NCBI GenBank assembly: GCA_002356515.1 | Contig: AP017605.1 | Coordinates: 2,108,001-2,172,000, forward strand | Direction: 5' to 3' | DNA: 64,000 bases | Origin: Mesorhizobium loti | Lineage (GTDB): Bacteria > Pseudomonadota > Alphaproteobacteria > Rhizobiales > Rhizobiaceae | Part shown: positions 23,146 to 33,781 of the stretch, piece by piece | How positions within the stretch are numbered: position 1 is the first letter of the stretch | Layout of the letters: every line of letters starts with the position of its first letter | Position numbers and translations under genes: made by a program | Notes under the pieces: model-generated | Database searches by the model: none | What the model was told of the DNA's origin: nothing | The model's input: the letters and a program-made list of their open reading frames with translations, nothing else

Positions 23146-26100
23146 ATGTCGGAAAAGCCTCGAGTAGAGCCTCCAATCGTGGCCCTTACCAACAGCGTCG
23201 TGAGCAGGGACGACAGTAGTGTGTCCGACGTTCGCAGCGAGCGGCGCGTTATGACAGCTCTCTGTTATGATCTGGTCGGATCGACCGACCTGCTCGCAGC
23301 TCTGGATATCGAGGACTATGACGAACTGGAGTCGGCCTTTCGGCGTGAGGCAAGACAGGCAATCTCATCGTATTCGGGCGTTGTCGTGATGGAAGCCGGC
23401 GACGGTGGTGTCGCACTTTTTCCAGCAGAGATGGAGGCAAAGGACGCGGCTTCGCAGGCGATCCGGGCCGGGCTCGAAATCATTGAAGCGTGCAAGCGGG
23501 TCGGGCTGGAGAAAGACCATACGGACCTACATGTTCGGGTCGGGATCGCTACATCCATGACCCTCGTTCACGAGGACGGCGGTAACACGGCGCATGCCAG
23601 CGTCACTGGCCCTGCTTTGGCCATGGCGACGCGGCTTCAGGCCATGGCTCAGCCGGATGCAATATTGGTGTCCGACGAGACCCGAAATCTGGCGCGGCGG
23701 TCCCACGTTTTCAGTTTTCGTGGCATTCACGTTATTAAGGGTTTCGCGGAGCCGGAGCGGACCTGGCGTGCCATCAGCCACAAGCGGGACGTCGACCGCT
23801 TCTTCGCCTTCGGGCGCTTGAACAATACGTTTATAGGCCGTGGGGACGAACTGGCCACCATCGCCGCATGTTGGCGCGATGCTGTCGCCGGCAAGGGCGG
23901 CGTCATTTTGGTTCAGGGTGAGGCCGGTATCGGCAAGTCCCGGCTGCTTTATGAAGTCCGCAAGAGGACACGCTTTCAGCGGGCAAAATTGCTGCTTTTT
24001 CAATGTCAGCCAGGCGGCTCTCACTCGGCCCTTTATCCTCTGCTGCAAAATGTTCGCAGTGAGCTGGCTGGCAAAGAGGGGCGGCTGGAGACCTCAGACG
24101 TAGCGAAGGTCTTCGGAAATCAAAGCGTTCACGATGACGAAGTGGTCGACATCTTCTCGTTTCTGCTTGGGGCTGAGGGATCGAACCCCACTCTGAAAGA
24201 GGCTGATCTCAAGGTCATCCGGGAGAAAGCCACCTGGGCGGCGCGCAGAAGCATCGAAGCCATATGCAAACGCGGACCACTCATCCTGGTGGTCGAAGAC
24301 ATACATTGGATCGACCCCACATCGAGGCAATTACTGGAGGAAATTGCACTCTTCATTCATCGGCTGCCCGCGCTTCTCATAATGACTGCGCGACCTGGAT
24401 CTGAGACTTATTCAGAGTTCCGGGACGTGTCGAATATCACTCTGAAGCCGCTCGATCGCGAGGAAACGCGACAGGCAATCATCGCCATGCGGCCGGAAAT
24501 TGGGTCAGCCACGCACTCGGAACTCGTTAGCATGGTGGAGGAGGTAACCGGGGGCGTGCCTCTCTTCATCGAGGAAATCTGCCAATGGATCGCCGAAAAT
24601 GCAGCCTCCATAACGGATCGCCTTGCGCCAGCCGGCTCATCAAGCCGAATATCGGTGTTTGAAGGCATCGTTGAAGCCAGGCTGGAAGCCTTGGGCCCCG
24701 CAAAGGATGTGGCACGAGCGGCAGCCGTCGCCGGCAATCGTTTCAATCTGGAATTGCTCCGCAAGCTGCTGCCGGAATACAGTGACGAGACGATCAGGAA
24801 CGCACTGGACACCCTCATCGAGGCGGAATTCCTCATCCGGGTCAGGCCTTCCGGCGAGCCCGACTATGGATTTCGTCACGCTCTGATCCGAGAGACAATC
24901 TACAATGCACTGCTGCGGAGGAGACGGCAGACCCTTCATCAGTCGCTTTTCTCCACCGTCGGCCGCGACCGAAATCTGGCTCCCTGGCTGGGTACGGCTG
25001 AACTGGCGGAGCATGCTGAACGCGCTGGCCTTATCGAGGAAGCGATCGATCAGTTCATCGCAGCCGGCCGGGAAAGCTACGTCCGCTCTGCAATGGCCGA
25101 GGCGAGACAGATTCTCGACCATGCCATGACCCTTTGCCAGCGAGTGAGAAGGCCGGACAAGCAGGACGTTTTGCGCCTCGCCGCGATGATGCCGCTCGGG
25201 CCGATACTTACAGCCACGGAAGGTCCAAACTCGCTGCCGGCCCGCAAACTTTACGAGGACGGGGTAGAGATCGCCAGGCGGCGGCCACTCGCCGAGCGTG
25301 CGAAGTGGTTTCCGATCTACTGGGGTTGGTGGTTCACCGACTCCACCATCGACGGGGAGCGCGCACGGACCGTCCTCGCCGACCTGAGGGATGTCGACGA
25401 CCCCGAAGTGCAGTTTCAAGCCAGACACTGTGTCTGGGCGATCGAATTTAATCTTGGGCATCACAAGAACTGTGTCGCAGCGGTCGACGAAGGACTTGCG
25501 CTCTATGGGACAGGCCAAAGGGCAGGAGATGCCACTCTGTTCGGCGGCCATGACGCCAGGGTCTGCGGCCTGTCGCACAGGGGTCTCTCTCAGTGGTTTA
25601 CCGGCCGGGCCGCAAGCGCAGTTCGGTCGTTGGCTGAAGCCAGGCGCTGGGCAATGCAAACGGCGCATGTTGGTAGTATCGCCCATGCCTACATCAACGA
25701 AGCGATGCTTGATTGCTATCGCCGAGATTTCTCGGCGCTGCGCGGCGTCATCGCCGATATCCGCGAATTGACGAAGCGCCACCATCTGCCCTCCCTTGCC
25801 GCCTTGGCGCAAATTCTCGAAGGCTGGTGCGAAGGAAATGCTGCTCGGGTTGAGCAAGGCAGGGACCAGATCAAGGAGGGTCTCGCGATCCACGGCGAAC
25901 TCCAGACGCCGGAAGACTATCCTGTCTACTACGGCATGCTGGCGGAGCTTCTGGCCCGGACAGGCGAGACTGACGAGGCCCTCAGGCTTGTCTCTTCCGC
26001 GGCTGCGGAAGCCGAAGCAGGCGGCAGCCTTTCTTGGCTCGCCGAACTCTATCGGCGAAAGGCACATCTGCTTCTACTGAGAGGTTCCTCGGGCACGGAT

Positions 26101-26307
26101 GTTGTTGCCGCGCTCTCCAAAAGCCTGGCTACCGCCGATGAGCAAAATGCGGTGCCAATCCTGCTCAATGCATATGAGATGCTCAGGACATGGGGCGTAT
26201 CGGAGGAATTATCCCGGCAGTACCGTGGGCGCGTCGCCTTGGCGAAATCAGCCATCGAGCAGGGCGCGGCGTTGTTCGTCAATCTAGAACCAAGCCTGCG
26301 CCGCTAG
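23146..26307 (+). CDS. class III cyclase-like / AAA-type NTPase fusion regulator
   Basis: This 1053-residue protein has a cyclase-homology domain at about 35-210: metal Asp42 in YDLVGSTD and Asp86 in MEAGDGGVALF are kept. Residues usually Lys and Asn in active class III cyclases appear as Met82 and Ala159, while Arg163 is kept. An NTPase domain follows: FIGRGDEL near 229, Walker A GEAGIGKS at 258-265 and Walker B ILVVEDIHWID. The C-terminal half is helical and TPR/MalT-like. Such fusions act as signal-responsive regulators. It ends 29 nt before the YcaO gene, and a cyclase/kinase fusion partner is a known feature of some TOMM clusters. It may sense a signal without making cyclic nucleotide. 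Confidence 0.85.
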   Translation: MSEKPRVEPPIVALTNSVVSRDDSSVSDVRSERRVMTALCYDLVGSTDLLAALDIEDYDELESAFRREARQAISSYSGVVVMEAGDGGVALFPAEMEAKDAASQAIRAGLEIIEACKRVGLEKDHTDLHVRVGIATSMTLVHEDGGNTAHASVTGPALAMATRLQAMAQPDAILVSDETRNLARRSHVFSFRGIHVIKGFAEPERTWRAISHKRDVDRFFAFGRLNNTFIGRGDELATIAACWRDAVAGKGGVILVQGEAGIGKSRLLYEVRKRTRFQRAKLLLFQCQPGGSHSALYPLLQNVRSELAGKEGRLETSDVAKVFGNQSVHDDEVVDIFSFLLGAEGSNPTLKEADLKVIREKATWAARRSIEAICKRGPLILVVEDIHWIDPTSRQLLEEIALFIHRLPALLIMTARPGSETYSEFRDVSNITLKPLDREETRQAIIAMRPEIGSATHSELVSMVEEVTGGVPLFIEEICQWIAENAASITDRLAPAGSSSRISVFEGIVEARLEALGPAKDVARAAAVAGNRFNLELLRKLLPEYSDETIRNALDTLIEAEFLIRVRPSGEPDYGFRHALIRETIYNALLRRRRQTLHQSLFSTVGRDRNLAPWLGTAELAEHAERAGLIEEAIDQFIAAGRESYVRSAMAEARQILDHAMTLCQRVRRPDKQDVLRLAAMMPLGPILTATEGPNSLPARKLYEDGVEIARRRPLAERAKWFPIYWGWWFTDSTIDGERARTVLADLRDVDDPEVQFQARHCVWAIEFNLGHHKNCVAAVDEGLALYGTGQRAGDATLFGGHDARVCGLSHRGLSQWFTGRAASAVRSLAEARRWAMQTAHVGSIAHAYINEAMLDCYRRDFSALRGVIADIRELTKRHHLPSLAALAQILEGWCEGNAARVEQGRDQIKEGLAIHGELQTPEDYPVYYGMLAELLARTGETDEALRLVSSAAAEAEAGGSLSWLAELYRRKAHLLLLRGSSGTDVVAALSKSLATADEQNAVPILLNAYEMLRTWGVSEELSRQYRGRVALAKSAIEQGAALFVNLEPSLRR

Positions 26308-26336
26308 CCGCGCGGCTGGGAGATCGGGAAGCCTCC

Positions 26337-27494
26337 ATGCTGGAACGGTACGAGCGCTCGGGTCCTCCGCCGCGCGAAGCGCTCATGCGGCTAATGGCGA
26401 TGCGCGAGCTCTTGGGCATCACACGGATTGCAGACATCACAGGCCTCGACGTGCTCGACATACCCGTGGTTCAGGCGGTCAGGCCTTTCTCCCTTTTAAA
26501 TTCCGTTTCGCAAGGCAAGGGACCGACCATAACCGAAGCTGCGGTATCGGCCATTCTCGAGGCCGCGGAGTCCTGCTTTGCCGAGCGCTTGACGCACTAC
26601 GACCCCATAGCGGCCTCCGCAGACTCCCTGAATATTCCTCCTGAAAGATTCGAAGCCCATCTCCAGCCTGGTGTCGACGCGGGCTGGCGCAGCAGGGACA
26701 TAGCTTGGATTCATGCCGAGAATATCCTCAAGGGTGGCTTGCAGGATTGGGTCCCATTCGAGCTTGTACACACTGCCTACGTGTTCCCGCCGCGGCCCCA
26801 CGAGGAAATCTTCGCTTCATCGACGTCTGGCCTGGCGGCCTCCTTCAAGGAAACGGACTCTATCCTGCACGGGATAATGGAATGCATCGAGCGCGACGCA
26901 CTCACGCGGGCGGAGCGAATCCATGGCTTTTTCCAGCGCCGTCGAATTGACCCAAGAACGATCGACGATCCGACAGTTGCGGGCCTTCTCGAAAGTCTGG
27001 AAGCCAAAGGCCTGCTGGTGGGGCTTTGGCACGCCCCCTCGCCGCTGGGACTACCGGTGATCTGGTGCCATCTCATGGAGGATCGGCCACCGGAAACTGC
27101 AATTCTTCACCATCCGGCAGAGGGCTCGGCGGCAGGTTTCGATGCCGCGTCCGCGATCGTTCACGCAATCTACGAGGCGGCGCAGTCGCGATTGACGGCG
27201 ATCTCCGGCGCCCGTGATGACCTGACGCGTGTGTCCTATCCAAGATATCCCGATTGGCAAAAAATTGCGGCGCACCGACGCCTCCTGTCAGACGGCCCTC
27301 GCGACGTCCATTTCCATGCGATTGCCGGACAGAACTACCCCAGCGCGGGAAATAGGATGTCCGCCCTTCTCGCACAGATCGAGGGCGCAGGAATCGACGC
27401 GGTGTACATGATCCAACTCGATACGAGGCCGCTCTGCGACCTATCGGTCGTCAGGATCGTCATACCGGCCTTAAGGCCGCTGTTGCATGGCTAG
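26337..27494 (+). CDS. YcaO-family ATP-dependent cyclodehydratase/thioamidation protein
   Basis: This 385-residue protein shows the YcaO ATP-binding signature: S71-x3-E75-x2-E78 in SAILEAAES, E182-x2-E185-R186 in MECIERDA, and E280-x2-Q283-x-R285 in EAAQSR. It begins directly in the catalytic fold, with no fused ocin-ThiF/E1-like partner. It ends VIPALRPLLHG without the PxPxP tail of azoline-forming YcaOs. Family enzymes phosphorylate a backbone amide to install azolines or, with TfuA, thioamides. The next gene is TfuA, overlapping by 8 nt, so thioamidation of a peptide or protein is the best inference. Confidence 0.92.
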   Translation: MLERYERSGPPPREALMRLMAMRELLGITRIADITGLDVLDIPVVQAVRPFSLLNSVSQGKGPTITEAAVSAILEAAESCFAERLTHYDPIAASADSLNIPPERFEAHLQPGVDAGWRSRDIAWIHAENILKGGLQDWVPFELVHTAYVFPPRPHEEIFASSTSGLAASFKETDSILHGIMECIERDALTRAERIHGFFQRRRIDPRTIDDPTVAGLLESLEAKGLLVGLWHAPSPLGLPVIWCHLMEDRPPETAILHHPAEGSAAGFDAASAIVHAIYEAAQSRLTAISGARDDLTRVSYPRYPDWQKIAAHRRLLSDGPRDVHFHAIAGQNYPSAGNRMSALLAQIEGAGIDAVYMIQLDTRPLCDLSVVRIVIPALRPLLHG

Positions 27495-28227
27495 GCAAAT
27501 GCGTCCCAAGCTGGTCTTCTCCGGTCCCACCGTGTCACAGGGCGAGGTGCTGGAAATCGTGGAGGCGATCTGCCTTCCGCCGGCTGTGCAAGGTTCGATC
27601 ATTGCGGCTGTGCAGCATTTTGATCCGAGCGCGATAGTCATCATCGACGGCGGCTTTCAGTCGGAGCCGGCGGTCAGGCACAAGGAAATCCTTTGGGCAA
27701 TAGCGAAAGGTGTTCCGATAATCGGCGCAGCGAGCATGGGGGCACTTCGCGCCGCGGAACTCTTTCCATACATGCAGGGCGTGGGGCTCATCTACCGGTG
27801 GTATCGTCGTTTTGCGTTTGCGCCTGACGATGCAGTGGCCGTGCTGCACGGACCATGGGAGGTAAATTCCGCGCCCATAACCCACGCGCTGATCGATCTT
27901 CGCATGACGGTTCGCAGGGCGTGCCGTCGAGGCATTATTTCGGCTGAATACAGAGCCAGCCTGGAGCGCGCCGCGCAAGCTCTCAATTTTCGCCAGCGCA
28001 CGCTCGACCGCATGGTCGGTGACGCCTTGTCATGCGAAGGTGATCTCGTTGTCGAGAAATATCAGGAGATCCTCGCCGCAACATTCGTTCAGCAAAAGAA
28101 GCAGGATGCGCGCGATGCACTCCGGCTATTGCATCACGGCTTATTGAAGGAGCCCGCCCCCCTGCCGGATTTCCAATTGACGGCGGCTTTCTTTAAGGAT
28201 CTCGACGAAGCCGGGTTAGAGATTTGA
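27487..28227 (+). CDS. tfuA: TfuA-like protein, YcaO partner
   Basis: This 246-residue protein has the TfuA core: IVIIDGGFQSEPAVRHKEILWAI, GVPIIGAASMGALRAAEL and GVGLIYRWYRRFAFAPDDAVAVLHG. TfuA was first linked to trifolitoxin production in Rhizobium. With YcaO it takes part in thioamide formation, as in thioviridamide-type RiPPs and methyl-coenzyme M reductase. The gene overlaps the YcaO stop by 8 nt, so the pair is translationally coupled. No separate sulphur-carrier gene is nearby. The reaction here is inferred from the pairing. Confidence 0.93.
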   Translation: MARQMRPKLVFSGPTVSQGEVLEIVEAICLPPAVQGSIIAAVQHFDPSAIVIIDGGFQSEPAVRHKEILWAIAKGVPIIGAASMGALRAAELFPYMQGVGLIYRWYRRFAFAPDDAVAVLHGPWEVNSAPITHALIDLRMTVRRACRRGIISAEYRASLERAAQALNFRQRTLDRMVGDALSCEGDLVVEKYQEILAATFVQQKKQDARDALRLLHHGLLKEPAPLPDFQLTAAFFKDLDEAGLEI

Positions 28228-28277
28228 GAGCATCAGGGCGAGAATTCTCAATGTCAACATACGATGCGTTTGGCATT

Positions 28278-28309
28278 TTGCTAATGTATTAAAAATTGCT
28301 AATGTATTA
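28278..28309 (+). repeat. 14-bp direct repeat upstream of the metallopeptidase
   Basis: TTGCTAATGTATTA occurs at 28278-28291 and again at 28296-28309, 18 nt apart, in an AT-rich gap just before the ATG at 28312. The spacing and position suggest an operator or a duplicated promoter element. Binding factor unknown. Confidence 0.7.
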
Positions 28310-28311
28310 GA

Positions 28312-29511
28312 ATGAGAGGGGCTGAGCTAATAGGAACGCTCGATCGATCCAGCGACCAAAGTCGTTCCGTCGGCACGCGCTTCCTTCTATTCCCCCAGGT
28401 GCCCCACCTTGCCGACTACGGCACACCAGAGACCGTCTGGATATCGACCCCGCCGGGCCGGTTACGCGCCGGTCCGGAGGACCACCGCATCTATGTCCGC
28501 GATCCGCTTCTCGACAAGGAACCTTACGAGTATCCCTATCTGCCGCCCTTCGTTGGCGAGGCCTTCCCGCCTGCGGAACCCGCCTACGACGGTCACTTCG
28601 ACCAGATTTCATTGAATTCACGTCAGTTCCTGGCGGCACACGCCTTCGGGGCAGTCAGCAGGGTCCTGGACATCTGGGAGAGCTACCTTGGGCGGCCGAT
28701 TACCTGGTACTTCGCCGAAACCTATGAGCGGCTGGAGATCATTCCGTGGGTCGACTGGAACAACGCCCAATCTGGCTACGGTTATCTGGAACTCGGCGTG
28801 GACAGGGCGCCCGACGGCCGAACTTATCCCTATGCCCTCAACTTCGATACGATTGCGCATGAGGTCGGCCATGCGATTCTGTTTTCCCTTTTTGGGGTGC
28901 CGGCAAATGGCTTGAAGACCGGCGACTTCGCGTCGTTCCATGAGGCGAGCGCCGACATAACGTCGCTTCTGTCCTTCCTGCATTTCGACAGCGGCCTCGA
29001 CCGGCTGCTCCGCCACTGCGACGGCAACCTCCTCGTCCTGAACGAGCTCAACCGCATTGCCGAACTGATCGGCGACCGGCAGATTCGCCTCGCCAGCAAT
29101 TCGCGCCGCATGTCTGAAGTCTCCGACGAAATTCATGACAGGTCGCGGCCCTTCACGGGGGCCGTATTCGATACGATCGTCGACATCTACCACGCGAATC
29201 TCGTGGGTGATGGACTAGCCGACGGGCGGCTTCTCGATATCGATATTAGAGATATCGACGAGGCCGCCATGCACCGCATCTCGAATTTCACGGCGCTGGC
29301 CTTCCGTGCCAGGCCGTTCCTGTTCAAAAGCGCGCTGACCCGGGCGCGCGACGATGTGGCGCTGACCCTTGCCCGGACCTGGTCCAGCCTCGACGCAGAC
29401 GATCTGACCTTTGAGAATGCCGCGATGGCCATTGCCGAAGCCGGCAGCCGCATCGCGCCGGCGCTGGGCGCCAAGTTCGAGGAAAACTTCAGGTGGCGAG
29501 AAATTTCATGA
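28312..29511 (+). CDS. gluzincin-like zinc metallopeptidase (HExxH), unknown family
   Basis: This 399-residue protein has HEVGH at 183-187 in IAHEVGHAILF, and FHEASADITSLL at 209-220, where Glu211 is placed as the third zinc ligand in thermolysin- or fungalysin-like enzymes. Both His ligands and the catalytic Glu184 are present, so it should be active. No signal peptide or membrane helix is seen, so it is probably cytoplasmic. It lies 84 nt after tfuA and 29 nt before the AT-rich gene at 29541. It could trim a modified precursor, but I cannot place it in a named family. Confidence 0.75.
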   Translation: MRGAELIGTLDRSSDQSRSVGTRFLLFPQVPHLADYGTPETVWISTPPGRLRAGPEDHRIYVRDPLLDKEPYEYPYLPPFVGEAFPPAEPAYDGHFDQISLNSRQFLAAHAFGAVSRVLDIWESYLGRPITWYFAETYERLEIIPWVDWNNAQSGYGYLELGVDRAPDGRTYPYALNFDTIAHEVGHAILFSLFGVPANGLKTGDFASFHEASADITSLLSFLHFDSGLDRLLRHCDGNLLVLNELNRIAELIGDRQIRLASNSRRMSEVSDEIHDRSRPFTGAVFDTIVDIYHANLVGDGLADGRLLDIDIRDIDEAAMHRISNFTALAFRARPFLFKSALTRARDDVALTLARTWSSLDADDLTFENAAMAIAEAGSRIAPALGAKFEENFRWREIS

Positions 29512-29540
29512 ACTGAATTGCCGAAGCGAGGAGAAGCATC

Positions 29541-30206
29541 ATGAGCGACGACTATCACCGTCCTACATATACGACGACCGATTTGCACGGAGCGTTCAAT
29601 GCAACGCAGGTGCGGCTCTACGGGGTTCCTGGAGTACCAAAGCCAGAAGACAAAAATGAATTTGGAGATATAAACACTATTGTAAAAGAAGGTCAGTACG
29701 CTATGACTTTTTCCAAATTGGCGGAAAGCACTCCTGACAATAATTATGAAGAATTGCTGCAAATGATAAAAACAATGTTCGAAAATCAAGGAATTACCAA
29801 GCAAGAAAGTTCTTACGTTTTTATTAAATCTGTATTAGATAATTATATGTTACTTTTAAGTGCGATCGACACACAACCAACTAAGAAAGATTCGAAGAAA
29901 TATAGCTGTGGAGTAATTTTCGGATATGCGTACGAGGGGCACACATACGATCTACCAAAACCAAAGATCATGTTGATACCGGCACCTCCGCTACAGATAC
30001 CCGGCGATGATTCCGGATATGATCTTAAGAAAGACTATTACAGGGTCTGGATTGTCGATAAGCTTGACCAATGCGTCGAATTCGAAATGAACCAGGGCTT
30101 TGTCGAACAGCTTGTTCTGGAGGCGAACCTTCCCGGCAAGCGCTCGCCGACCATGTATGCTGCGAAGCAGGCGCTCGGGCACCGCAGTGGCAGGCTGACT
30201 GAGTAG
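29541..30206 (+). CDS. AT-rich hypothetical protein, candidate substrate or partner of the YcaO-TfuA system
   Basis: This 221-residue protein is unrecognised. A good GAGGAG site lies 8 nt before the ATG, 29 nt after the metallopeptidase stop, so the two are probably co-transcribed. The stretch from about 29640 to 30010 is much richer in A and T than its surroundings, with Lys, Asn and Ile codons unlike the neighbours, which suggests recent transfer. It has two Cys (in KYSCGVIFG and LDQCVEF), an aromatic and Pro-rich middle (DLPKPKIMLIPAPPLQIPG) and no export signal. It may be the modified protein, an immunity factor or an unrelated cargo gene. Confidence 0.7.
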   Translation: MSDDYHRPTYTTTDLHGAFNATQVRLYGVPGVPKPEDKNEFGDINTIVKEGQYAMTFSKLAESTPDNNYEELLQMIKTMFENQGITKQESSYVFIKSVLDNYMLLLSAIDTQPTKKDSKKYSCGVIFGYAYEGHTYDLPKPKIMLIPAPPLQIPGDDSGYDLKKDYYRVWIVDKLDQCVEFEMNQGFVEQLVLEANLPGKRSPTMYAAKQALGHRSGRLTE

Positions 30207-30883: not shown

Positions 30884-31096
30884 CTACGCTTTCTTCAAAA
30901 ACTCCGTCCGTAGAACCAGGTTTTTGACCTTTTCGGCCCGACACTCGACCTCATCTTCATTGCCCGTGAGGTGGATGTTTTTGATCAGAGTTCCGCGTTT
31001 CAGGATGACGGACGTGCCCTTGACCTTGAGATCCTTGATGAGCGTGACGGAATCCCCTTCGCTCAGCGGCGTGCCGTTGCTGTCTTTGACCTTCAT
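30884..31096 (-). CDS. PhnA/YjdM-like C-terminal domain protein
   Basis: This 70-residue protein reads MKVKDSNGTPLSEGDSVTLI then KDLKVKGTSVILKRGTLIKN and ends LVLRTEFLKKA. It matches the small C-terminal (KOW-like) domain of PhnA/YjdM proteins without the N-terminal zinc ribbon. Short PhnA-like proteins of this size are common, but their function is poorly known and the old link to phosphonate use is weak. The start overlaps the stop of the upstream 60-residue gene by 4 nt. Confidence 0.85.
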   Translation of the reverse strand: MKVKDSNGTPLSEGDSVTLIKDLKVKGTSVILKRGTLIKNIHLTGNEDEVECRAEKVKNLVLRTEFLKKA

Positions 31097-31405: not shown

Positions 31406-31678
31406 ATGATCACTGCTTCCCAGCTTCGTGCTGCCCGCGCCCTTCTCAACATCGACCAGAAAACCCTAGCGGAAATGGCGGGCGTCTCGCTGCCGACGAT
31501 CCAACGAATGGAAGCCAGCCAGGGCAATGTGCGAGGCGTTGTCGACAGTTTGATGAAAGTGATCAACGCGCTCAGCCGCGCCGGCGTAGAACTTCTCAGC
31601 GAACATGTACGTAGCGACGATGGCGGCCGTGGCGTCAGGTTCCGCCATCCGGACACGCTGCTTGGCAGGCCAAACTAG
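31406..31678 (+). CDS. small XRE-type helix-turn-helix protein (paralogue 1)
   Basis: This 90-residue protein begins MITASQLRAARALLNIDQKT and has the HTH LAEMAGVSLPTIQRMEAS. It then has a conserved tail with VDSLMKVINALSRAGVELL and DDGGRGVRFRHP. The same plan recurs at 34063 and 42351. The upstream region is AT-rich. The next gene downstream is a DUF1275 membrane protein. It probably binds DNA locally; its target is not known. Confidence 0.85.
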   Translation: MITASQLRAARALLNIDQKTLAEMAGVSLPTIQRMEASQGNVRGVVDSLMKVINALSRAGVELLSEHVRSDDGGRGVRFRHPDTLLGRPN

Positions 31679-31817
31679 GCCGTACAAAAGCACACCCTCG
31701 GCGCCACGCATTCACCCGCCCTCGCCTTTGTCTTCCCTGCTCAAGAAACACAATGAGTCTCTCCTGGCACGTCAGCTTGCGGTCCCGCCTTTCCACGTGG
31801 AAAGGCGAGGTTTGCCC

Positions 31818-32576
31818 ATGATCCTATATCTGCGCCGGTTGACTGGCAGGGAACGAAGCGAAAGAACGGATCGGCATCTCGCCCGTTTCCTGACGTTCAT
31901 AGCAGGAGCTGCCAACGCTGGCGGCTTCCTGGCAGTTCAGCAGTACACTTCCCACATGTCCGGCATCGTTTCGTCGATGGCCGACCACCTGGCACTGGGC
32001 AATGTCGGACTGGCACTTTCCGGATTGGGGGCCTTGTTGTCATTTGTCACAGGTGCTGCCTGTTCGGCAGTCCTGGTCAACTGGGGACGGCGGCAGGGTC
32101 TGCAGAGCGAATACGCGTTCCCGCTTGTCCTGGAAGCGATCCTGCTGATGTGTTTCGGTCTGCTCGGCAGCCATCTTGCACGTCACGAAGCGCTGTTCGT
32201 GCCAATGACGGTGATGCTGCTTTGCTTCATCATGGGGCTGCAGAACGCCATCATAACCAAACTGTCGGAAGCCAGAATCCGGACGACGCATGTCACGGGC
32301 CTGGTGACCGATATGGGCATCGAACTTGGCAAGCTGCTTTATTGGAACATCTCAGGCAATGACTCGGACAGACTCTTCGTAAGAGCAGACCGGAGAAAGC
32401 TGAGACTGCTCGCGTCGCTTGTGGCATTGTTCTTTGTCGGCGGCGTCATCGGCGCTGTGGGTTTCAAACACATTGGCTTTGCAGCGACGTTGTTTCTCGC
32501 GGCCATTCTCCTTGTGCTGGCCTCAATGCCAGTCTTGGAGGATCTCTCCATTCGCATGAGGCGGCTCTGGCAGTAG
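31818..32576 (+). CDS. DUF1275 (YoaK-like) integral membrane protein
   Basis: This 252-residue protein has about six hydrophobic segments. It includes FLTFIAGAANAGGFLAVQQYTSHMSG, in which the AGxxNAxGFL and THMSG-like pattern is typical of DUF1275, and GLQNAIITKLSEARIRTTHVTG. The family is predicted to be a transporter of unknown substrate. The start is the ATG preceded by AGGCGAGG. Residues 1-15 (MILYLRRLTGRERSE) form a basic cytoplasmic lead. Confidence 0.88.
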   Translation: MILYLRRLTGRERSERTDRHLARFLTFIAGAANAGGFLAVQQYTSHMSGIVSSMADHLALGNVGLALSGLGALLSFVTGAACSAVLVNWGRRQGLQSEYAFPLVLEAILLMCFGLLGSHLARHEALFVPMTVMLLCFIMGLQNAIITKLSEARIRTTHVTGLVTDMGIELGKLLYWNISGNDSDRLFVRADRRKLRLLASLVALFFVGGVIGAVGFKHIGFAATLFLAAILLVLASMPVLEDLSIRMRRLWQ

Positions 32577-33034: not shown

Positions 33035-33781
33035 CTAGGCAGCCCGTCGCGGTCCGCGCCACGGCCTGAATGCCAGCAAGCCGAGCTCATGTTCGATCTC
33101 GTCGGCTCCGACCGACGGCGGTATCAGCAGCACTGGCTGGACGAGATCCCGCACCTTGCCCGCCATGACGAGTGCGTTGCGATCCGGAATGCCGCGGATA
33201 TCGAGCAGTCTCACATCCGCCCAGATATTGGCGAGCTTTGCGGCAACGCGATCCGGCATGATGTCGAGGTCGTGACGAGCATGAACGTTGCCGATCAGAA
33301 TACCGGAAGAATCCTGGAGACGCGTCTGCGCCAAGCCGAAGAATGTCTCGGCGCACAAGTGATCTGGGATGCGGCCCCCGGAATATGCGTCCATAACGAT
33401 CGCGTCGTAGCGGTGACGGCCGGCGCGCAAAAAGTCCCGCCCATCGGAGATGCAGCAGTGAACGCCAAGAGGTAGCCCGAAATATTTCCGGGCGATTTGG
33501 AAAGCCTTGGGATTGATGTCGACGATCGTAACACGCACACCAACCCTATCCAGCATCGTGCCCAGGCTGCCACCTCCACAGCCGATCATCAGAACATCAG
33601 ACACCTGCGCCTGTGCGAGAAGACCAAAGATCGCGTGGATGTAGGGCACAACGCTGATGCCGCTCGGATCGCACTCGCTTTGATAGCAGCCACCCTGACG
33701 ATAGATGAACGAACCCGAGTCCTTGCTCCGCAGAACCTCGATATTGCCGAAATCGGTATGATATTTCGCAACCCGGATCAT
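33035..33781 (-). CDS. spermidine synthase-like methyltransferase-fold protein
   Basis: This 248-residue protein has the SAM-binding motif VLMIGCGGGSLGTML, an acidic second strand (VTIVDINPKAFQIAR), then CCISDGRDFLRAG and DAIVMDAYSGGRIPDHL. These match the SpeE family fold, with the catalytic Asp position in MDAYSG. Similar stand-alone proteins are often of unknown substrate and not true polyamine synthases. It has no close operon partner: an MFS remnant lies downstream and the XRE/hyf operon starts divergently. Confidence 0.8.
   Translation of the reverse strand: MIRVAKYHTDFGNIEVLRSKDSGSFIYRQGGCYQSECDPSGISVVPYIHAIFGLLAQAQVSDVLMIGCGGGSLGTMLDRVGVRVTIVDINPKAFQIARKYFGLPLGVHCCISDGRDFLRAGRHRYDAIVMDAYSGGRIPDHLCAETFFGLAQTRLQDSSGILIGNVHARHDLDIMPDRVAAKLANIWADVRLLDIRGIPDRNALVMAGKVRDLVQPVLLIPPSVGADEIEHELGLLAFRPWRGPRRAA

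Follow-up and report, generated by a model that had tools for sequence, protein, structure and literature searches.

The window analyzed here, a 64,000-nucleotide stretch of the Mesorhizobium loti genome (contig AP017605.1, positions 2,108,001 to 2,172,000), carries five consecutive genes on the forward strand that probably form a ribosomal peptide pathway for an unrecognised family of thioamidated peptides. The genes encode a protein with cyclase and nucleoside triphosphatase (NTPase) domains, probably a regulator (CYC, 23146..26307), the ATP-dependent backbone-modifying enzyme YcaO (26337..27494, with an ATG start at 26337), its thioamidation partner TfuA (27487..28227), a predicted M4/thermolysin-like peptidase (PEP, 28312..29511) and a 221-residue protein (ORPH, 29541..30206), predicted to consist of a leader protein and a C-terminal tail. 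In this pathway ORPH would be the precursor, YcaO-TfuA would modify its tail and PEP would cut it. All five open reading frames were found where the initial annotation had placed them, and its spacings were reproduced as well, with 29 nt between CYC and YcaO, an 8-nt overlap between YcaO and TfuA, and 29 nt between PEP and ORPH.

Linkage of the five genes across genomes

A search of named genomes with a PEP profile returned 263 relatives; the 80 best were retained, and their stretches were searched with profiles of all five genes. All five were present in 80 of these 80 loci, and at 77 they follow the order CYC-YcaO-TfuA-PEP-ORPH on one strand; a gene is split over two open reading frames in L119 and L141 (CYC) and in L122 (YcaO). 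At three Microvirga loci (L156, L169 and L171) PEP is on the opposite strand, convergent, at the far end and facing the other four genes. To counter the bias of best hits, we drew an even sample of the taxonomic order to which the window belongs (21 of 397 genomes with 22 PEP places, the window included), where YcaO and TfuA stood beside PEP in 22 of 22 places and ORPH in 20 of 22, the contigs of L208 and L217 ending at or just past PEP. The check proposed by the initial annotation, whether the peptidase and the orphan gene stay with YcaO-TfuA elsewhere, thus came out in favor of linkage, which we consider well supported and far beyond chance. Among 101 relatives, 20 of the 24 PEP places at E <1e-70 adjoin YcaO-TfuA. 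Between the five proteins, the distance matrices correlate with r 0.82-0.96 over 77 loci, a measure that includes host relatedness, and for no pair was a value as high reached in 500 permutations.

The cassette is found in many bacteria of soils and root nodules. The closest named PEP relative (98%) is that of Mesorhizobium carmichaelinearum, in a comparison from which records very near the window's genome may be excluded. A PEP match is carried by 140 plasmid records, 117 of them from Rhizobium and 39 predicted to be conjugative. YcaO-TfuA pairs with no PEP or ORPH match in the stretch examined were seen at L047, L049 and L051, and these are probably other thioamidation systems.

YcaO, TfuA, the cyclase and the peptidase

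YcaO matches PF02624 with 173 bits (Pfam cut-off 25.7) and TfuA matches PF07812 with 129 bits (cut-off 30), and the cassette YcaO is the sole YcaO match in the 8.45 Mb genome. The residues E75, E78, E182, E185, E280, Q283 and R285 of YcaO, which we take to belong to the ATP/Mg site, are invariant in 13 sequences, so that both marks of a YcaO-TfuA system, adjacent genes and conserved ATP/Mg-site residues, are present. The best NCBIfam models are TIGR03266 for YcaO (McrA-glycine thioamidation; 151 bits, cut-off 365) and NF033432 for TfuA (152 bits, cut-off 235), and since both scores lie below the cut-off we rejected the assignment of the pair as McrA thioamidation equivalogs. The partners of thiazole/oxazole-modified microcin (TOMM) and linear azole systems, i.e. 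a C protein/ThiF and a flavin mononucleotide dehydrogenase, were absent from the ten window proteins scanned (five from the cassette and five neighbors). Neither is there a Cys/Ser/Thr-rich core of the azole type, Cys being found in 0 of 80 window-type tails and the window tail having 2 Ser and 2 Thr in 22 residues.

CYC was called from the Pfam families Guanylate_cyc and AAA_16, and contains a class III cyclase domain (residues 39-199), an AAA_16 NTPase domain (228-400) and weak TPR matches; it is a probable regulator. The TOMM kinase/cyclase equivalog TIGR03903 was tried for CYC and rejected; the score of 334 bits is less than half of the cut-off of 705.75, and only model positions 277-1265 are covered, the missing positions 1-276 being presumably the kinase part.

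The claim that the fourth gene encodes a metallopeptidase holds at the level of motif and modeled fold, as PEP has an HExxH motif with a downstream Glu and a predicted thermolysin fold. No substitution of H183, E184, H187 or E211 was seen in sets of 18 and 47 relatives. The AlphaFold model of PEP has a predicted local distance difference test score (pLDDT) of 87, its best match in the PDB is thermolysin (4tnl, E 2.5e-6, probability 1.00), and each of the 24 PDB entries matched at E<=0.001 belongs to peptidase family M4 or M36; the TM-score to 4tnl is moderate, 0.49 on the query. A Pfam search at E 0.1 assigned PEP to no family, M4 models included, and despite this the model points to an M4/thermolysin-like peptidase. 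The N-terminus of PEP is not strongly hydrophobic.

A conserved tail in ORPH and tandem repeats in its sister proteins

The label "orphan" given to the fifth gene in the initial annotation was mistaken, since ORPH has 274 relatives of its own type at E<=0.01, 120 of which are listed and used here, and at least 1057 relatives of a sister type. In a Pfam search at E 0.1 the window ORPH matched no family and its relatives (105 aligned) gave weak matches only. In window-type proteins both termini are conserved and the middle is hypervariable. The predicted core or tail of the window protein, KRSPTMYAAKQALGHRSGRLTE (residues 200-221, positions 30138..30203 on the forward strand), is a single conserved Cys-free segment located where the sister proteins carry their repeats, and the window-type tail is conserved across genera. 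At the 80 loci the tails fit either Y...H[RK][SGN]G[RK] (54) or Y...LAP.R (26), patterns that were picked after the tails had been viewed, and Cys is found within the last 25 residues in none of the 80 loci and none of the 120 listed proteins. By eye, the end of the window tail, GHRSGRL, looks like the sister unit SGAHARL. The structural model of ORPH has a mean pLDDT of 76.8 and is confident over residues 121-190 (block means 85-93), middling over 31-120 (56-79) and weak past residue 200 (61, 59, 43), where a helix is drawn at 203-215.

The sister type came to light when genes for ORPH next to more remote YcaO-TfuA-PEP sets were aligned, and it has the same domain as the window type followed by a tandem repeat at the extreme C-terminus. 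Because low-complexity words could drive the search, the profile was built from ten sister leaders truncated before their tails, and it is this profile that gave the relatives counted above. C-terminal tandem repeats were present in 90 of the 120 listed sister proteins, with period 5 in 53, period 7 in 36 and period 9 in one, while the controls gave none (0 of 120 for the first 60 residues, and 0 of 120 every time the tails were shuffled, over 20 rounds). The 90 repeat-tailed proteins have 36 distinct consensus units, such as VSGAR, SGAHARI and MSARG, and further loci add period 4 (GMNV) and period 6 (RAVMAS, SGANLG and GRSMMT). An R or K is present in 87 of the 90 consensus units and a V, I, L or M in 85 of 90, and Cys occurs within the last 40 residues in 2 of the 120 listed proteins.

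Between the unit copies of 16 arrays we counted 954 synonymous against 111 non-synonymous codon-pair differences; two of the arrays come from YcaO-free loci, the codon pairs are non-independent and some loci are close kin. This excess argues that selection acts on the amino acid sequence of the arrays, as expected of repeated core peptides. Fresh slippage does not predict copy differences that are biased towards synonymous ones.

The hypervariable middle and the flanking genes

The AT-rich stretch noted initially is real, with a guanine plus cytosine (GC) content of 40% at 29500-29999, and the middle of ORPH (residues 41-116, positions 29661..29888 on the forward strand) has 31% GC versus 50-52% at the ORPH ends. 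Against L096, L100 and L109 the CYC, YcaO, TfuA and PEP proteins of the window are 91-96% identical (PEP 94-96%) and the middle of ORPH only 20-22%; against L097-L099 the four other proteins are 90-96% and the middle 68-76% identical; and against the closer L095 the values are 96-98% and 87%. In eleven relatives the GC content of the middle is 34-47%, and in L096 and L109 it is 46-47%, hardly below that of the C-terminal part (48-49%). From these comparisons the variation looks like an exchange of allelic modules.

Flanking genes were compared over 117 loci in 26 PEP clusters, considering the 14 most shared gene groups. The most widespread of these groups is a separate nucleotide cyclase of approximately 600 residues, seen at 25 of 117 loci and in 10 of 26 PEP clusters; 20 of the 25 loci lack the fused CYC and five have both. 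All five YcaO-free loci described below have the separate nucleotide cyclase. Neither form was seen in the stretch of six sister loci (L043, L197, L207, L208, L211 and L212), so a cyclase is frequent and not universal. A GNAT-like protein, as read from its sequence, recurs at 4 loci in 3 clusters. An ATP-binding cassette (ABC) ATPase group (12 loci, 9 clusters) was set aside, since for so large a family the sharing looks coincidental.

Just upstream of the PEP start, at 28278-28309, the 14-base word TTGCTAATGTATTA occurs as two copies in the window and L095 and as a single copy in L096, L098 and L099, and L097, L100 and L109 have an altered form; the region may contain a tandem duplication and a -10 element of the extended type. 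Downstream of the cassette are a YjdM/PhnA domain gene (30884-31093, reverse strand), a DUF1275 gene (31605-32576, forward strand) and a methyltransferase-like gene (33038-33781, reverse strand), all assigned by Pfam, and none of them has a counterpart in any of 133 related stretches.

Discussion

Among the options left by the initial annotation for the substrate of YcaO-TfuA, the 221-residue protein is the best supported, as ORPH is kept with YcaO, TfuA and PEP across genera and its sister forms mostly have tandem-repeat tails; that ORPH resembles a precursor is well supported at the sequence level. In the proposed pathway the large N-terminal protein domain of ORPH would act as leader and its C-terminus as core, in which YcaO and TfuA would exchange at least one backbone amide for a thioamide, the site being guessed, by analogy with thiovarsolin, as the bond preceding the usual Arg/Lys. 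PEP would then release the core, and in the sister lineages it would cleave short peptides out of the tandem array. The cyclase/NTPase might sense the state or the product and signal via cyclic nucleotides, a signal that we propose because a cyclase is so often present. More tentatively, and with considerable doubt, the cassette may represent a large overlooked alphaproteobacterial class in which a folded leader and a dedicated thermolysin-like protease deliver multi-copy, mostly Arg-bearing thioamide peptides as signals read by the cyclase, the middle of ORPH conferring strain specificity.

A number of observations weigh against this pathway. Tandem repeats are absent from the window-type tails (0 of 80 loci, 0 of 120 listed proteins) and from 30 of the 120 listed sister tails, and by eye no repeat is seen in the YcaO-linked sister loci L194 and L218. 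The hypervariable middle is poorly accounted for by a mere leader role, and the flanks showed no transporter clearly tied to the cassette. Neither Arg nor Lys occurs in SGANLG, the unit of L213, a locus with YcaO-TfuA alongside. L197 (5620-8988) combines TfuA and PEP with an ORPH whose GMNV repeat also lacks them, and YcaO was not matched in the 16 kb examined, even at a threshold of E 10. Such Arg/Lys-free arrays mean that the Arg rule alone cannot place the thioamide. Four of the 24 PEP places mentioned above (G014, G020, G046 and G056) have no YcaO-TfuA in the stretch examined, and YcaO was absent genome-wide in all three that were tested (G014 lay outside the test) despite PEP and a repeat-tailed ORPH. 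Two plasmid loci likewise have PEP and a repeat-tailed ORPH with no YcaO in the stretch examined, which argues that the PEP-ORPH pair is independent of thioamidation. The initial annotation had named the unlinking of PEP and ORPH from YcaO-TfuA as what would refute its proposal; this is seen in a minority of loci (L187, L190, L200, L201 and L202) and in no window-type locus. Its proposal did not anticipate these YcaO-free relatives, nor the repeats, the hypervariable middle of ORPH and the thermolysin fold of PEP.

The YcaO/TfuA-free pairs of PEP and repeat-tailed putative precursor are located at L187:6983-9312, L190:6983-9293, L200:7244-9878 and L202:6148-8513. Their units are like GRSGGAM or LSRSGGA, and a protein of 110-122 residues comes next. 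They are hosted by Rhizobium plasmids (R. etli and R. ruizarguesonis) and by genomes of the window's genus.

It is conceivable, if rather unlikely, that ORPH is itself a working protein, whose thioamidated tail stays attached or is trimmed for activation and whose hypervariable middle is responsible for activity or recognition. Such a role would suit a middle that varies while the other four proteins remain 91-96% identical, a tail conserved over genera and a model that is confident at residues 121-190; the short tandem repeats of the sister proteins, with their many different units, are better suited to released peptides than to an attached tag. Certain intracellular M4 enzymes are accompanied by a neighboring gene for a small inhibitor, and the pairing of PEP with ORPH where YcaO is absent would agree with ORPH being an inhibitor or folding partner of PEP, YcaO-TfuA then targeting another protein. 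We regard this as improbable, since YcaO-TfuA accompanies PEP in every place of the even sample, and an inhibitor role would leave unexplained why the arrays keep their amino acids while their codons drift. Least probable of the three, the repeats could form a structural solenoid like that of pentapeptide-repeat proteins, or a binding tail resembling RGG. The sister repeat tails are indeed Gly/Arg-rich. Of 44 sister proteins, 5 match PF00805 at E<=0.01 (best E 2.7e-5; the one with bits shown scores 18.0 against a cut-off of 20.2), and NCBIfam pentapeptide models each match at most 3 of the 44; PF00805 is also annotated in the source record of sister protein P0241, and the window ORPH has no match to it. 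The window type is repeat-free, however, and periods of 4, 5, 6, 7 and 9 do not suit one five-residue solenoid.

Returning to ORPH as a precursor, we compared the cassette with known systems. The closest parallel is thiovarsolin from the var cluster of Streptomyces varsoviensis, a YcaO-TfuA system with repeated cores whose thioamide links Pro and Arg (PMC6511847). Shared with the cassette are YcaO and TfuA beside a precursor with repeated cores (here a putative one, with repeats in the sister types) and Arg in the core, whereas the thiovarsolin cluster is found in Actinobacteria, has no specific protease according to its authors, and its precursor was found in a 20-120 residue window (PMC6511847). 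The cassette differs by its large predicted leader domain, M4-like peptidase and cyclase, and none of the heme-oxygenase-like, ATP-grasp, amidinotransferase and major facilitator superfamily (MFS) genes of var has a counterpart among the ten window proteins scanned. As proposed for ORPH, proteusins have a long, partly structured leader and a C-terminal core (PMC10858898), but the proteusin leader is nitrile-hydratase-like, and the proteusin-type NCBIfam models matched neither the window ORPH (E 0.1) nor any of 44 sister proteins (E 0.01). The TOMM kinase/cyclase fusions resemble CYC over the aligned part of TIGR03903 and differ in its first 276 positions. The YcaO-TfuA pair behind the thioglycine of methanogen McrA, an archaeal protein (PMC5589413), supplies the best NCBIfam models for both enzymes here, each below its cut-off.

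PEP resembles the leader-removing metalloproteases of ribosomally synthesized and post-translationally modified peptides (RiPPs) in being a metallopeptidase in a RiPP-like cluster; the accessible part of a review of these enzymes names M1, M16, M61, M103, M50 and M79 and no thermolysin-like enzyme (PMC10885120). YcaO, TfuA and adenylate cyclases have been noted near ATP-grasp genes in a graspetide survey, a different setting (PMC8939145). A 2021 survey placed 70% of its unique TfuA clusters in Proteobacteria and more than 500 in Rhizobium, and its accessible text contains neither "metallo" nor "cyclase", with "peptidase" once, for a prolyl endopeptidase (PMC8120280). That survey ran RiPPER at standard settings (PMC8120280), which retrieve precursors of 20-120 residues (PMC6511847), and precursors of the size of ORPH would therefore not be picked up. 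No description of the five-gene cassette was found in the open-access literature, to which the search was confined. A survey of 2015 called the substrates of TfuA-associated YcaO proteins unknown (PMC4603692), and for these the cassette offers candidates for the substrate and for the protease as well as a predicted product, testable in rhizobia such as Sinorhizobium meliloti.

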